Shown in pieces: positions 476 through 5,738 of a stretch of 5,781 bases of DNA. The notes under the pieces are model-generated. The model was not told the origin of the DNA. It made no database searches and was given only the letters and a program-made list of their open reading frames with translations. The DNA comes from Planctomycetota bacterium (GTDB lineage: Bacteria > Planctomycetota > Planctomycetia > Pirellulales > Pirellulaceae). The translations under genes and the position numbers were made by a program. The DNA is taken from the NCBI GenBank assembly GCA_026692885.1, contig JAPLNJ010000056.1, positions 1-5,781 on the forward strand, read 5' to 3'. The stretch's first letter is position 1. Every line of letters starts with the position of its first letter.

Positions 476-3400
476 ATGCAGGTTCGGCTGATCCAAGTTT
501 TCGTCTCGTCGCCGGGAGACGTGGCCCAGGCACGGCAAGTCCTGGACGAAGTGGCCGCGTCCATCAACCGGACGGACGGTCAGGCGGGCGGGTTCCGCTT
601 GGAGTTGTTCAAGTGGGAAGACAGCGTCACGCCGCAGATCGGTCCCCCACCGCAGCAGGTTGTCGATGCGCAGACGCCCGAGTACGACGTCTATATCGGC
701 ATCATGTCGACTCGCTTCGGGACGCCCACCGGCCACTACGGCAGCGGGACCGAGAAGGAATTCAAGGACGCGCTGAAGAAGTGGAAACAGGTGGGTGCGC
801 CGTGGATCACCTTTTACTTCGATGATCAGCCACCGGCTTCCAGCGACCCCGCCCAGGTCAAACAGTACTTCAAGGTCTGCGAGTTCCGCCAGCGAATGCA
901 GAAGCAGGGACTCTACGCCACCTATCGCGGCGTGCGTGGCAGTTCGGACAGCTTCTTTGAAAAGGTCTCGACCCACCTGCGCCAAATCGTCCATCGCCTG
1001 CTGCCCCCAGCGCGGCCGGGCGAATCGCCACCGCCGCCAACCGATCCCACCAAGTATTTGCTGGGGCTGAAAGAGCAGACGGCGTACATCGACATCCGCG
1101 GTTTGCCGGTGGGCGAAGGACGAGCCAACCGGTTCCCGATCGAGGAGTTGTTTATCTCGCTGACCACGACTCAGCTACCGGACGAGGCCGAACAAGGCAG
1201 CCGGCGGAGGCCGGGGCCAGGCGAGGATGCGAGAGGGGCTGCGGAAGGCGAAGGGCTTACGAGTCACACGGTGCCCCTGCACCAGGCGCTGGTGCACGAC
1301 CGGTTGGTCGTGGTCGGCGATCCCGGCGCCGGCAAGACGACCTTCCTGCGGCGCGTGGCGAACGCACTGTGCCGCCGACAACTGGGCGAGGCTTCCGCCG
1401 CGGACCAACTGCCTGGCCTGCCCGATCGGCCGTTGCCGATCTTCGTGCGGATCGCCGATCTGGCGCAACATCTTCAGCGGCATGACCAGCAGGCTGCCGC
1501 TCCCGGCGGCGACGATGCGGCGGGGTGGCTCGCACACTACCTGGGCGCCGCCAGCCAGGCGGCCGAGACTGGACTGGACGCCGATTTCTTCCGGCGTCAA
1601 TTGGACGCGGGCCGCTGCACCGTGTTGCTGGACGGTCTGGACGAGGCGCCGGACCGCGTGCTTCGCGAAGCCATTTCCCGCTTGATCGAAAACGTGACCG
1701 CGGCTTACCCCGGCTGCCGCTTCGTGGTCACCAGCCGCCCGGCGGCCTACAAGGGGAAAGTGGTCCTGCCGCAATTCACCCACGCCCGGATCGATCCGCT
1801 GTCGGACGCCGCGGTAGAAACCTTCCTGACCAAATGGTGCCGGGCCATCTACGTGGAGAGCGCGCCCGTCGCCGGCACGCACTGCACGGAACTGCTGGAC
1901 GCGGTCCGGGCCCGTCCCGAGCTGCGCCGGATGGCGCGCAACCCGGTCATGCTGACCGCCCTGGCCGTGGTGCATTGGAACGAGAGGCGGTTGCCCGAAC
2001 AGCGCGCCGATCTGTACAGCTCGATCATCACCTGGTTGTCTCGCGCCCGCGAGCAGCGTCCCGGCCGCGCGACCGCGGACCGCACCGTGGTGGTCTTGCA
2101 GGAGTTGGCGCTGGCCATGCAGGACGATGCGGAAGGCCGCCGGGTGCAGGTTCCCAAACGCTGGGCGGCGGAGAAACTGGCCGGCGAGTTCAACACCGGG
2201 CGGACGGCCCGAGCGGCGATCCGGCAGGCCGAGCAATTCCTGGACGAAGAGGAAGTCGACAGCGGCATCATGGTCGGCCGCGGTGACGAGGTCGCCTTTT
2301 GGCATTTGACCTTCCAGGAGTTCCTGGCGGCCCGAGCGATCGCCAGTCGTCTGGAGCAGGAGCAGAAGGCGATCCTGTTTGCCAAGCCGGACAAGCTCTA
2401 CCTGCCCGACTGGCGCGAAGCCATCTTGCTGCTGGGTGGAGCTTTGCACCAGCAAGGCAAGAAGAAAGTGGACTGGTTGATCGAAGCCGTTTTTGCCGCC
2501 CTGGGAGAGACTCCCACGCTGGCCCAGCAAGCGCGCTGCGCCGGCTTGATCAGCGGCATCTTGCGCGACCTGGAACCGCTGAAGTACCAGGCGTCTCATG
2601 CCCGGTATCCCGTGCTCCTGCAGCGCGTCATGGCGATTTTCGAGCGAGACCAATCCCAGACCGTGTCCCTCGAAGAACGCCTGGCGGCCGCCGACGCCCT
2701 GGGCCAGGCCGGTGATCCGCGGATCGACTTCACGCGCGCGGATTACTGGGTGACGATCCCGGCAGGTGAGTTCCTGATGGGGGCGCAGAAAAAGGATCCG
2801 CACGGAGAAAACTACGATTTGGAAGCGACGGACGACGGAGATGGGCGAGAGACGCCGCATCGGGTACGCTTGGACGCCTATCGCATCGCCCGCTATCCGG
2901 TGACCGTGGGCCAGTTTGAACAGTTCATCAAGCACGACGGATACGAAGATGAGCAATGGTGGAAGGCCGGGGGATTTGGTCAATTCTCGGAGCCTGGCAG
3001 TTGGGCCGACCAGCAGCCTTACCCCTCGCGCCCGGTCGTCACGGTCAGTTGGTACGAGGCGGCGGCGTTCTGCGCTTGGGCCGGCTTTCGGCTGCCGACC
3101 GAAGCGGAATGGGAGCGGGCAGCGCGCGGAACCACTGCGAGAAAATTCCCGTGGGGTGATGAGTCGGCAAACGCCGAGCGATTGAACTTCCAGAGCCAGG
3201 TAGGGCACCCGACGCCGGTTGGGATCTACCCCTTGGGAAACACGCCGGACGGGATTTGCGACTTGGCGGGCAACGTGTGGGAGTGGTGCGAGGACTGGTT
3301 CGCAGTCTACACTGCTGAGTCGGTGGCCAATCCGCGAGGGCCTGCTGGCGAGGTCTCGAACCGGGTGTACCGGGGCGGGTGCTGGTACTACTCGGCCGTG

Positions 3401-3490
3401 CTCTGCCGGTCGGCGTACCGCGACTGGCTCGGGCCGTCCAGCCGGGTCTTCGACCTGGGCTTCCGTGTCGCCCGTAGTTCCGTCCGGTGA
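476..3490 (+). CDS. DUF4062-NACHT-SUMF1/FGE-like NLR-type sensor protein
   Basis: The product has 1004 residues. An N-terminal DUF4062 domain (about 1-175) shows IQVFVSSPGDV at 6-16 and YDVYIGIMSTRFGTPTG near 70-86; its biochemical role is not established. A linker with YIDIRGL and RFPIEEL (about 203-225) leads to a NACHT NTPase: Walker A GDPGAGKTT at 281-289 (Lys287), Walker B VLLDGLDEA at 383-391, and VVTSRP at 417-422. HLTFQEFLAA at 610-619 marks the end of the NACHT helical part. Helices follow to about 750. A SUMF1/FGE-like domain runs from about 756 to the end (IPAGEFLMG 761-769, RLPTEAEWERAARG 872-885, GNVWEWCEDW 932-941, LGFR 994-997). Enzymatic FGE activity is unlikely: Cys977 matches the second catalytic cysteine of sulfatase-activating FGE, but the first is Tyr972. 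I see no signal peptide or membrane helix, so it should be cytoplasmic. Inferred role: ATP-switched conflict or defence sensor with the C-terminal domain as receptor. ATG 476 is chosen for its Shine-Dalgarno and because the domain starts at once. It appears monocistronic and sits between inverted repeats. Confidence 0.93.
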   Translation: MQVRLIQVFVSSPGDVAQARQVLDEVAASINRTDGQAGGFRLELFKWEDSVTPQIGPPPQQVVDAQTPEYDVYIGIMSTRFGTPTGHYGSGTEKEFKDALKKWKQVGAPWITFYFDDQPPASSDPAQVKQYFKVCEFRQRMQKQGLYATYRGVRGSSDSFFEKVSTHLRQIVHRLLPPARPGESPPPPTDPTKYLLGLKEQTAYIDIRGLPVGEGRANRFPIEELFISLTTTQLPDEAEQGSRRRPGPGEDARGAAEGEGLTSHTVPLHQALVHDRLVVVGDPGAGKTTFLRRVANALCRRQLGEASAADQLPGLPDRPLPIFVRIADLAQHLQRHDQQAAAPGGDDAAGWLAHYLGAASQAAETGLDADFFRRQLDAGRCTVLLDGLDEAPDRVLREAISRLIENVTAAYPGCRFVVTSRPAAYKGKVVLPQFTHARIDPLSDAAVETFLTKWCRAIYVESAPVAGTHCTELLDAVRARPELRRMARNPVMLTALAVVHWNERRLPEQRADLYSSIITWLSRAREQRPGRATADRTVVVLQELALAMQDDAEGRRVQVPKRWAAEKLAGEFNTGRTARAAIRQAEQFLDEEEVDSGIMVGRGDEVAFWHLTFQEFLAARAIASRLEQEQKAILFAKPDKLYLPDWREAILLLGGALHQQGKKKVDWLIEAVFAALGETPTLAQQARCAGLISGILRDLEPLKYQASHARYPVLLQRVMAIFERDQSQTVSLEERLAAADALGQAGDPRIDFTRADYWVTIPAGEFLMGAQKKDPHGENYDLEATDDGDGRETPHRVRLDAYRIARYPVTVGQFEQFIKHDGYEDEQWWKAGGFGQFSEPGSWADQQPYPSRPVVTVSWYEAAAFCAWAGFRLPTEAEWERAARGTTARKFPWGDESANAERLNFQSQVGHPTPVGIYPLGNTPDGICDLAGNVWEWCEDWFAVYTAESVANPRGPAGEVSNRVYRGGCWYYSAVLCRSAYRDWLGPSSRVFDLGFRVARSSVR
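3371..3475 (+). other. Candidate DGR variable region at the 3' end of the NACHT gene
   Basis: Residues 966-1000 form the C-terminal SUMF1/C-type-lectin-fold segment that DGRs diversify in other proteins. The frame residues are kept: RGG 966-968, Trp970, CRSA 977-980, Arg982, Pro987, Arg990, LGFR 994-997. Fourteen intervening positions (971-973, 975-976, 981, 983-985, 988-989, 991-993) are mostly Asn in ordinary family members but here are Y, Y, S, V, L, Y, D, W, L, S, S, V, F, D. Eleven of the 14 codons end in C, as expected if AAC codons of a template had been changed at both adenines. Only six adenines occur in the 105 nt. High genomic GC alone also favours C-ending codons and few adenines, so the codon argument is weak alone. 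No template repeat or reverse transcriptase lies in the window. Confidence 0.45.
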
Positions 3491-3642: not shown

Positions 3643-3742
3643 CGGCCGTAAAGAAACAACTCTGCAGTTTCGTCGTAGAGCGGACTTCAGTCCCGCTCGG
3701 GCGGAATGAATTCCGCCCTACGAATTTGTTTCTTTACAGCCG
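3643..3742. repeat. Nested palindromic repeat with paired REP hairpins
   Basis: An outer inverted repeat joins 3643-3659 and 3726-3742 (16 of 17 pairs; core GTAAAGAAACAA / TTGTTTCTTTAC). Inside it, 3675-3721 begins GTAG and ends CTAC and holds two different hairpins side by side. The first is about 3679-3697 (AGCGGACT / AGTCCCGCT, with one extra C). The second is 3699-3718 (GGGCGGAAT / ATTCCGCCC around GA). Two hairpins sharing one GTAG/CTAC frame look like a REP pair. It lies between the NACHT gene and the right inverted arm, overlapping the arm edge by two bases. No coding content. Confidence 0.75.
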
Positions 3743-3917
3743 TGATCGCCCCCGAGAAGCTCCCGACGTAAGTCGGTGGGAGTGTTCCCGCCCTGTGTCT
3801 AACCCGGAGCCCCCTATCCGACCGGCCCGACTCGTCGGCTGCCCGCCGCCGGAGGCGGCGGGCAGCCGACGAGTCGGGAGAACTCGGTGAGGCGCCCCGG
3901 TGTTAGGAGTTGGCGGG
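3741..3917 (-). repeat. Right arm of long inverted repeat flanking the NACHT gene
   Basis: This is the inverted counterpart of 1-138, with 131 of 138 aligned bases identical. It is 39 nt longer because it holds one half of a large palindrome (inserted part about 3838-3876) that the left copy lacks. The inner edge CGTGATCG at 3741-3748 matches 131-138 exactly, and similarity ends there. Together the arms enclose about 3.6 kb that contains just the NACHT gene and its flanks. Confidence 0.9.
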
Positions 3918-3952
3918 ACTGCTCTCACCGACTTACGTCGGGAGCTTCTCGG
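3752..3952. mobile_element. MITE-like 201-bp element with 31-bp terminal inverted repeats
   Basis: Terminal repeats 3752-3782 and 3922-3952 are complementary at 30 of 31 positions. They begin CCGAGAAGCTCCCGACG and end CGTCGGGAGCTTCTCGG, and each contains the small palindrome CCGAC-GTAA-GTCGG. The interior carries no open frame of note and a perfect 53-nt palindrome. Small size, terminal repeats and no transposase fit a non-autonomous element. I see no clear target-site duplication. The match to the left arm extends 11 nt beyond the inner terminal repeat, so the true unit boundary may differ from the one given. Confidence 0.6.
3826..3878. repeat. Perfect 53-nt palindrome inside the right element
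   Basis: Arms 3826-3850 and 3854-3878 are perfectly complementary over 25 bp, with GGA as a 3-nt loop. The core is CTGCCCGCCGCC / GGCGGCGGGCAG. In DNA it could extrude as a cruciform; in RNA it would be an extremely stable hairpin. The left copy keeps only the short outer part (40-53). Confidence 0.95.
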
Positions 3953-4130: not shown

Positions 4131-4154
4131 GTCAGGCTGGAAAGCCCGACCTAC
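4131..4154 (-). repeat. REP-like hairpin overlapping the toroid gene stop codon
   Basis: Read on the minus strand it is GTAG-GTCGGGCT-TTCC-AGCCTGAC: an 8-bp stem (one G-U pair in RNA) with a 4-nt loop. The GTAG foot at 4154-4151 includes the TAG stop of the toroid gene. The same type of sequence gives Gly-Arg-Ala-Phe-Gln-Pro-Asp in a shadow frame, a peptide often met in spurious planctomycete gene calls. It may also act as a transcript end, but no T-run follows. Confidence 0.65.
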
Positions 4155-5314
4155 TTCTTGGCGTCCCGATCGAACAACAGGAGTTTCCCGGTCTCCACCT
4201 GCAGCGTCAGCACGGACAAGCTGGTCACCATCAGCCGCCCGCCGTGCGTGCCCCACGTATCGGCGCTGGGCTTTTGCGGATCCCAGCTCCCGGCTGCGCA
4301 GCCGTCCTGACACTGGCTCGCGACCAGCTTCTGGCTCACACTCCGCTTCCATGCGTCCGCATCCGGCCCACCGGCGTGATGCAGCACCTGAGTCGCGAAG
4401 AACCAGTAGTAGCCATTGCGACCCGAACGGTCGGGAAGATTGGCCAGCAGGTACTGACGCCCCTCGATCAGCGCGGGGTCTTCGGGTTTGGCGCCCAGGA
4501 TTTGCCTGCTCAGCAGACCCACTGCGGTCATTGTCGGCGTGGGACCCGACCCAGGGGTATACGCGGATTTCCCCCCCTGCTCGCCCGAGGCCACACTCTT
4601 GAGCCACTTGCCGGCGTCCTCCAGCGATTCCGGCTTGACCTTTAGGCCCGCCAACCGGCCGCTCTGCAGCGCCTCCAGCTGCCAGCCCAACACGGAGGTG
4701 TCCCCTTCATCGCCGGGCGTGTAACGCCAACCGCCGGTGCGCTGGTTCTGGGCCTTCTGGATGAAATCGATGGCGGCCTGGGCCGCATAGCCGAATGCGG
4801 GGTCACCTGTCGGGCCGTACGCCTCGCACAGCGCCAGCGTCGCTAAGCCATGCGAATACATGTTCCCGCCGCCGCGCAGGTCACCATCCGGCTTCTGATT
4901 CCGCATCAGCCAAGATAAGCCGTTCGTGACTGTCGATCGATAGGGTCCCTGGGACTTGTGCGTTTGACCGGCAGCCAGGAACGGCAGCAGGCCGAAAGCC
5001 GTAGCGGCCGTGTCCGTTGACTGTGCGCCGGGGCCGCTGCAAGGTGGGTCTTTGCAGACGGTCTGGTACTTGGACAGGCTCCAACGACCGTCTGGCAACT
5101 GGTGACGGGCCAGCCAGTTCAGTGCGGCGGAGATGGCGAGTTCCGATTTCTTGGCGGCGCTCGAGTCTTCCGATTTCTGGGTGGTCGGATTCGAGGGGGT
5201 TTCGGCGGCAGGCTCCGGCTTGTTCGATTCCTCAGCGGCGCGTAGTTTCGCTACGCCAGGATAAAGGACTAGGCCCAGAACTACGCCAGACAGAAAACAG
5301 CGAATCGCAGGCAT
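4151..5314 (-). CDS. Secreted prenyltransferase/squalene-cyclase-like toroid protein
   Basis: The product has 387 residues. Residues 1-26 look like a signal peptide: Arg5, a hydrophobic stretch FLSGVVLGLVLYPGVA, then a likely cut after LRA at 24-26. A Pro/Ser/Lys-rich linker runs to about 55. The rest has helical repeats of the terpenoid cyclase/prenyltransferase alpha/alpha toroid, with QW-like segments: NWLARHQLPDGRWSL (66-80), SWLMRNQKPDGDL (134-146), GGWRYTPGDEGDTSVLGWQL (194-213), YYWFFATQVLHHAGG (302-316) and GGRLMVTSLSVLTLQV (358-373). GNMYSHGLATLALCEAYG at 150-167 is a strong family mark. The acidic DXDD motif of squalene-hopene cyclases is not seen, so terpene cyclisation should not be assumed. 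CKDPPC (87-92) and CQDGC (335-339) could form disulfides outside the cytoplasm. Such proteins are numerous in planctomycetes and of unknown function. ATG 5314 is chosen over the in-frame ATG at 5401 because it has a Shine-Dalgarno and puts the signal peptide at the N terminus. It converges on the NACHT gene; no operon partner is in the window. Confidence 0.9.
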   Translation of the reverse strand: MPAIRCFLSGVVLGLVLYPGVAKLRAAEESNKPEPAAETPSNPTTQKSEDSSAAKKSELAISAALNWLARHQLPDGRWSLSKYQTVCKDPPCSGPGAQSTDTAATAFGLLPFLAAGQTHKSQGPYRSTVTNGLSWLMRNQKPDGDLRGGGNMYSHGLATLALCEAYGPTGDPAFGYAAQAAIDFIQKAQNQRTGGWRYTPGDEGDTSVLGWQLEALQSGRLAGLKVKPESLEDAGKWLKSVASGEQGGKSAYTPGSGPTPTMTAVGLLSRQILGAKPEDPALIEGRQYLLANLPDRSGRNGYYWFFATQVLHHAGGPDADAWKRSVSQKLVASQCQDGCAAGSWDPQKPSADTWGTHGGRLMVTSLSVLTLQVETGKLLLFDRDAKK

Positions 5315-5320
5315 GATCAA

Positions 5321-5326
5321 CTCCTT
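5321..5326 (-). promoter_or_regulatory. Shine-Dalgarno of the toroid gene
   Basis: AAGGAG on the minus strand lies 6 nt before the ATG at 5314. It supports that start over the upstream ATG at 5401. Confidence 0.8.
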
Positions 5327-5380
5327 GTGACGGCGGATTGAAATGAGGTGGCGTCCGAGGTTGTCTAATGCACGCACGGT

Positions 5381-5397
5381 GCGAACATCTTGTTCGC
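5381..5397. promoter_or_regulatory. Short perfect palindrome upstream of the toroid gene, possible operator
   Basis: GCGAACA (5381-5387) and TGTTCGC (5391-5397) are complementary around a 3-nt centre, 67 nt before the toroid start. It resembles the CGAAC-N4-GTTCG LexA box but has five central bases, so it is not a canonical site. It could be an operator for another dimeric regulator, a leader hairpin, or chance. Confidence 0.25.
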
Positions 5398-5405
5398 CCA
5401 CGATT

Positions 5406-5621: not shown

Positions 5622-5738
5622 GTAGGGTGCATCAAGCGCTGCGCCGATGCACCGTGTCCGTGGCCGTGGCCGCCGACGGCGATCGGCAGCCGCGTCAGAT
5701 GCTCGTGGTGCATCGGCGCGGCGCTTGATGCACCCTAC
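5622..5738. repeat. Long REP-like palindrome, GTAGGGTGCATC family
   Basis: Two 32-nt arms (5622-5653 and 5707-5738) are complementary at 31 positions, and the odd one is a G-U pair in RNA. They enclose a 53-nt GC-rich loop. The left arm starts GTAGGGTGCATCAAGCGC and the right arm ends GCGCTTGATGCACCCTAC. It shares the outer GTAGGGTG/CACCCTAC with the palindrome at 358-415 but not the inner part. The loop holds CCGTGGCCGTGGCCG-type repeats and no gene. Confidence 0.85.

Follow-up and report, generated by a model that had tools for sequence, protein, structure and literature searches.

The contig JAPLNJ010000056.1 of a Planctomycetota bacterium (Pirellulaceae; GCA_026692885.1), whose 5,781 nucleotides are together called the window here, carries on its forward strand a gene for a 1004-residue sensor-like protein (476..3490). 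According to the open reading frame (ORF) list and Pfam, this protein consists of a DUF4062 domain (predicted to be TIR-like), a NACHT domain and a C-terminal FGE/SUMF1 domain (FGE, formylglycine-generating enzyme). The locus raises the question of whether the end of the FGE domain is a stable piece of an enzyme-like fold or, as an initial annotation had proposed from the letters alone, the variable region of a diversity-generating retroelement (DGR) whose template would lie elsewhere in the genome. The second answer is supported: judged by sequence comparison, the last 32 codons (core of the variable region, 3371..3466, forward strand) behave as a DGR variable region with 15 diversified slots.

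The tail, RGGCWYYSAVLCRSAYRDWLGPSSRVFDLGFR, lies at 3371-3466 in the reading frame of the sensor gene. Its frame residues W970, CRSA 977-980, R982, P987 and R990 were correctly numbered in the initial annotation if counting begins at ATG 476 (from GTG 389, all numbers rise by 29). The 105 nt at 3371-3475 hold six adenines, as had been reported, compared with a gene mean of 18.9 per 105 nt; of 194 segments of this length, taken at 15-nt steps along the gene, one has six or fewer adenines, and it is the tail itself. Fourteen slots had been described as typically Asn and all replaced, 11 of them by codons ending in C. The replacement and the 11 C-ending codons (TAC, TAC, CTC, TAC, GAC, CTC, TCC, AGC, GTC, TTC, GAC) stand, while the number of slots is 15 and the proportion 11/15, the four remaining codons being TCG, GTG, TGG and GGG. 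The adenine-derived slots fall within codons 971-993 when numbering starts from ATG 476. Nor are all slots typically Asn: for some, the codon in the relatives' templates is AGG, GAG or CAG, and the window codons TGG, GTG and GGG are single-adenine changes of codons of that type. At the nine slots taken to be of AAC type, all window codons end in C, with a probability of P = 0.00024 at the gene's 40% third-position C and of P = 0.0003 given the residues and the sensor gene's own codon use.

The FGE part was used to retrieve relatives, and the best 120 of 6521 over the threshold were all aligned; for a few of these, NACHT is not one of the domains given. Across this alignment, the entropy of the 15 slots was 2.9–3.7 bits, and 11 of 13 frame columns remained below 0.6 bits. 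Nine AAC-type columns, with 1059 cells in all, held residues that cannot be reached by an NNC codon (E, K, M, Q, W) in 17 cells, compared with 1036 of 3781 cells in 32 high-entropy control columns outside the tail; the columns were picked after viewing the entropy table and the relatives' sequences, and the residue classes are fixed by the genetic code. A pairwise test was based on 6903 usable pairs of 7260. Where the constant FGE part was at least 80% identical, as in 11 pairs, mean identity was 21% at the slots (0.07 to 0.53), 96% at the frame residues and 63% at the control variable columns. One such pair (P0069/P0077) is 96% identical in the constant FGE part and 100% in the frame residues, with 7% identity at the slots. 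At the family level, the comparison of close relatives thus shows what the initial annotation had anticipated, slots that differ and frame residues that stay.

Ten templates or template-like stretches of relatives, chosen from the tail-motif hits described below, were compared with the window tail; three of them (L100, L017 and L046) were used without a fitting variable region of their own. Compared with the template of locus L001, the window differs at 17 of 23 adenines and at 13 of 73 other bases (p = 1.4e-6), and an excess of differences at adenines was seen with all ten templates (p from 7e-4 to 1.4e-6). A control outside the tail, again against L001, gave differences at 62 of 132 adenines and at 154 of 474 other positions. 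Some adenine excess therefore occurs anyway, but it is smaller than in the tail. Adenine-specific substitution of the window tail is thus indicated solely through the templates of relatives. On the reachability test, the adenine test and the outside-tail control, we reject a compositional accident, and the reachability, adenine and close-pair tests in relatives came out as predicted for a DGR variable region on a NACHT sensor. The tail carries the marks of a targeted-mutation machine, and the binding face has therefore probably been rewritten many times.

The opposing view, already raised in the initial annotation, is that the domain is simply an FGE/SUMF1 enzyme domain encoded in GC-rich DNA, whose stable tail resembles a variable region through composition. 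The gene is indeed rich in G or C at third bases (810 of 1004), and FGE/EgtB-type enzymes are the top sequence and fold matches. However, the residue-reachability and adenine tests contradict this view, as do relatives that are almost the same in the constant part and yet differ at the slots. When aligned to FGE by HMMER, moreover, the protein has a tyrosine in a diversified slot opposite one of the two FGE cysteines, which we take to be the catalytic pair. We regard an ordinary enzyme domain as hardly credible.

A source for such variation is found beside relatives of the gene. A scan for the tail motif (RGG-W...GFR) over 80 genome loci, one viral locus, 30 reverse transcriptase (RT) loci and the window gave 70 hits, from which 19 equal-length within-locus pairs were compared without any filter (after removal of two duplicate loci and of two pairs that differed in length). 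In 9 of the 19 pairs, every mismatch (12 to 20 per pair) hit an adenine in whichever copy was richer in A. Two further pairs had 15/17 and 14/17 mismatches on adenines, and the other eight, some of which consist of two variable regions, ranged from 3/14 to 19/27. DGR-like RTs were recognised in 16 of the 80 relative loci by a motif scan that can miss them, many of the contigs being short. The adenine-specific pairs of template and variable region that the proposal called for thus exist in relatives, beside DGR-like RTs.

Three loci illustrate this arrangement. L001, the best-scoring full-length relative (64%), lies on a contig filed as a Planctomicrobium piriforme metagenome-assembled genome (MAG) and has, in this order, an RT fragment (YMDD, IGSLTSQ), the template and the target. 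All 17 mismatches between its template and its variable region fall on template adenines, and the agreement between the two continues without a mismatch for 10 nt beyond each end of the core; carried over to the window, this would give the variable region a probable full extent of 3361..3476. The N-terminal part of the L001 protein is 67% identical to that of the window protein, although the L001 frame, which extends further at the N-terminus, has no DUF4062 by Pfam. L004 has DUF4062, NACHT and FGE by Pfam in the same order as the window, with a DGR-like RT frame adjoining; here, one template fits two variable regions, with 12/12 and 14/14 mismatches on adenines. At L100, an HRDC gene, an RT, a template and an incomplete gene that starts with DUF4062 and runs past the end of the sequence stretch follow one another. 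The best solved relative of the L100 RT is 8ub7 (E = 6.6e-38), which we take to be a DGR RT, with retron-type or group II RTs at 2.7e-13 and weaker. NCBIfam, applied to three of the RTs, matched group II, retron and DRT models and no DGR model. HRDC is described as a known DGR accessory in the available part of PMC10053308.

Two other loci showed unusual tails. In L002, a first target breaks off at its variable region (12800-13000), and an HRDC-like frame comes next, the likeness to the HRDC of L100 having been judged by eye; the cut is either a real break or an assembly collapse. A second L002 tail (16676-16935) is seemingly split between two frames in the assembly. L078, on a contig filed as a Methanophagales archaeon, has two variable-region-like tails (8417-8512 and 13140-13235).

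The mechanical start of the sensor ORF is GTG 389. ATG 476 is the likelier start, because AGGGAG lies 6 nt upstream of it, GTG 389 is flanked by the arms of a 22-nt perfect inverted repeat (GTAGGGTGGGCTGTGCCCACCA; 358-415) directly 5' of the gene, and Met 1 is nearly invariant (at least 90%) in A2, an alignment of the window with 44 of 64 DUF4062-annotated relatives. The forward strand then encodes the DUF4062 domain, a predicted TIR-like NADase effector (494..772), the NACHT NTPase or STAND switch (1301..1843), with the Walker A motif GDPGAGKTT, and the FGE/SUMF1 domain of C-type-lectin fold as receptor part (2741..3475). A NACHT domain with Walker A followed by a C-terminal FGE domain is the STAND/NACHT-FGE conflict-sensor layout. 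The structure model of the sensor has a pLDDT (predicted local distance difference test) of 86, and its fold matches include NLRs and the Treponema variable protein 1. By its predicted domains, the window protein is of NLR-like build, with an N-terminal effector, a NACHT switch and a C-terminal receptor.

The effector assignment begins with PF13271, which matched the N-terminal piece at 26.6 bits (cut-off 24.7). S90, T92 and E95 are the same in 45/45 rows of A2, and E95 (codon 758-760), at the start of helix 91-106 in the structure model, is the candidate catalytic Glu. Residues 3-175 (482-1000) match the N-terminus of the PADLOC candidate defence protein PDC-S60 (E = 2.5e-34). In the model of the sensor, the N-terminal region alternates between strands and helices, with a pLDDT of 73-90 in 17 of the first 18 ten-residue blocks; modelled alone, from 6 sequences, the domain was poor (pLDDT 51), and a profile search for a solved relative yielded none, its one hit having an E-value of 0.63. 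Of the best 120 relatives, 64 carry DUF4062 in their precomputed domain annotation, as counted by hand. Other relatives combine NACHT and FGE with TIR_2 (5), metallophosphatase (6) or caspase-like (2) domains, and these N-terminal swaps have the look of exchangeable effectors.

We consider it likely that the window protein is a hypermutated, NLR-like receptor and DGR target that triggers NAD+ depletion via its DUF4062 domain. A template RNA from elsewhere in the genome would be copied by a DGR RT that misreads adenines, and the resulting cDNA would replace the tail codons, changing about 15 slots and leaving the frame residues in place. If a variant bound a molecule of an invader, for which a phage protein is the likeliest candidate, the NACHT domain would be free to oligomerise; this would bring DUF4062 domains together, leading to NAD+ hydrolysis and stopping the infected cell. 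A more far-reaching version seems to us evenly poised between right and wrong: that a DGR retunes the FGE face of DUF4062-NACHT proteins, coupling new invader shapes to TIR-like NAD+ destruction in a TEP1/NWD1-like domain order, within a widespread effector-swapping family (DUF4062, TIR, caspase-like, phosphoesterase) that keeps the mutable receptor.

A live DGR target might instead serve ends other than immunity, as a receptor for kin, surfaces or small ligands whose NACHT and DUF4062 domains regulate development or programmed death in aggregates. Against this speaks the match of the N-terminal domain to a candidate defence protein. In addition, a phage portal triggers KpSwz, a DUF4062 protein that acts against phages as an NADase in abortive infection (PMC13174449, available part), and bacterial NACHT proteins are cited as antiphage in the accessible text of Dore et al., 2024 (PMC10907252). 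We judge a non-immune role improbable.

Several findings weigh against the NAD+-depleting, DGR-diversified receptor that we favour. Among the 4786 pairs with 50-60% constant identity, slots (11%) and control columns (14%) are close, because both are near saturation; the slot-excess contrast rests on the closer pairs. The nearest relatives in the FGE part among the best 120 of 6521 are 67% (P0001, 98% covered) and 71% (P0111, 65% covered) identical, too distant to reveal diversification in progress at the window itself. No closer ortholog or conspecific was present among these 120, nor was a closer ortholog in 170 genomes of the family of G001 or in 241 genomes of the family of G003, where five match at 1e-150, the best at 62-65%. 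Viral contigs gave only one weak relative (24%), and 724 plasmid records match, all below 60% identity, one of them covering at least 80%.

On the effector side, PF13271 scored 23.1 bits on the whole ORF, below the cut-off, and a fold search gave no TIR row for the N-terminal part, which is not evidence either way. L002, L003 and L044 are without Glu 95 (Q, D and M instead), and E93 is invariant in a six-row alignment (A3). This Glu pattern counts against a uniform NADase role, and the effector domains of these three proteins may possibly be inactive. L003 and L044 keep a variable tail though they are without Glu 95.

The contig itself adds a further difficulty. No template was found within its 5,781 bases, the closest other ungapped 96-mer having 49 mismatches to the tail, and no window ORF matched in the RT motif scan. 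The 475 bases before the ATG are without a template; in L001 and L100, it lies no more than a few hundred bases upstream of the target. Relatives show mixed template fits, as judged from 17 template/target comparisons in four genomes. In a Phycisphaerae MAG, the L018 template fits its own target (20/20 mismatches on adenines) and also the target L012 on another contig (17/17). In MAG PLA7 (G003), from which L100 also comes, the targets L003 and L044 fit neither template compared (L100, L019), with 12 to 26 non-adenine mismatches. Rejected as donors were the L100 template for L003 and L044 (16 and 12 non-adenine mismatches) and TR_L017 for VR_L017 (20). Feeding from a remote template is therefore possible in the related family, not general, and a similar mixture of own-locus and remote fits is described in the available text of Dore et al., 2024 (PMC10907252). 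Given these mixed fits and a contig without template and RT, there are three possibilities for the window gene: it is fed from a distance, the end of the contig separates it from its template, or it is stranded. By analogy with the related MAGs, a template, together with its RT, may lie elsewhere in the genome of the window organism.

A stranded target would have undergone DGR diversification in the past, would since have been separated from its template and RT, for instance by a move between repeat elements, and would now drift as an ordinary gene. The missing template and RT, the position of the gene between inverted repeat copies (1-138, 3741-3917) and the misfit of the two G003 targets to the L100 and L019 templates all agree with such a history. 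Yet the tail keeps its frame residues and an open frame, and the 17/17 cross-contig fit in the Phycisphaerae MAG means that a target is not stranded simply by being far from its template. The contig is also short, and it starts in a repeat, a common breaking point of short-read assemblies. We give a stranded gene a modest chance, well short of an even one. The alternatives to a live, NAD+-depleting receptor overlap, and the likelihoods attached to them are not meant to add up to a whole with that of the best explanation.

The flanking repeat copies are 88-89% complementary, and the contig begins within the left one. Overlapping the right one is a palindromic element (3752-3952), whose arms measure 41 nt. 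The repeat could be a mobile or REP-like element; the relative loci examined contained no copy of the stretch upstream of the gene. Downstream, the reverse strand encodes a squalene-cyclase-like repeat protein (4151-5401), whose closest other relative is 76% identical and whose named relatives are planctomycetes. A 32-nt inverted repeat (5622-5653 and 5707-5738), 97% complementary with the arms 53 nt apart, follows near the contig end.

Sensors of this general kind have been described before. The STAND-FGS (FGE) conflict proteins of Kaur et al., 2021 (PMC8195603, cited from its available part) are linked to DGRs and were proposed as invader sensors. Like the window protein, they fuse a STAND switch to FGE and swap N-terminal effectors or adaptors, and DGR components are often found nearby or elsewhere in the genome. 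They differ in that the word DUF4062 is absent from the main text of that paper, whereas the window protein has a DUF4062 N-terminus, and in the accessory near the RT, which is a four-helical protein in the accessible part of that study and HRDC beside the window-related RT of L100.

The targets of DGR 3 and DGR 6 in Thiohalocapsa PB-PSB1 are diversified in the wild (Dore et al., 2024; PMC10907252, available sections). They likewise carry NACHT or nSTAND1 with a C-terminal C-type lectin (CLec)/FGE variable region, and some targets of other loci in this organism fit another locus's template in trans. Unlike the window protein, they belong to a purple sulfur bacterium and have EAD8 or no identified N-terminal domain. 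The same sections name TIR domains as one kind of N-terminal effector and count filamentous planctomycetes as hosts. They also note that in many DGR-STAND targets the N-terminal extension contains no known domain, and that the sensor role remains to be tested; DUF4062 is not mentioned in the main text. A further comparable protein, the Treponema denticola variable protein 1 (2y3c), is a solved 278-residue chain without NACHT or DUF4062. The terms NACHT, FGE and formylglycine do not occur in the available part of PMC8144416.

On the effector side, a 2026 preprint (PMC13174449, as far as its text is available) describes DUF4062 as a TIR-like NADase. The bacterial Swarozyc protein KpSwz depletes NAD+ upon sensing a phage portal and requires its active-site Glu, the conserved catalytic E97. 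KpSwz and TEP1 share with the window protein a DUF4062 domain; they resemble it in having a conserved Glu, for which E95 or E93 would be the window candidate, and in human NWD1, NWD2, TEP1 and NPHP3, DUF4062 adjoins NACHT as it does here. Unlike the window protein, KpSwz senses the portal through a fixed helix-turn-helix (HTH)/winged auxiliary domain, and the words FGE, SUMF1 and retroelement are absent from the preprint text.

DGR-diversified NACHT-FGE sensors are therefore already published; no paper joining DUF4062 and DGRs was found in the open-access literature searched, in which the link to DUF4062 NADases appears fresh. Since DUF4062 would provide a measurable output, the loss of NAD+, the defence role of DGR-diversified receptors becomes testable. 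If the reading is true, hypermutated NLR-like sensors would give bacteria a diversification route comparable in idea to the diversification of antibodies.

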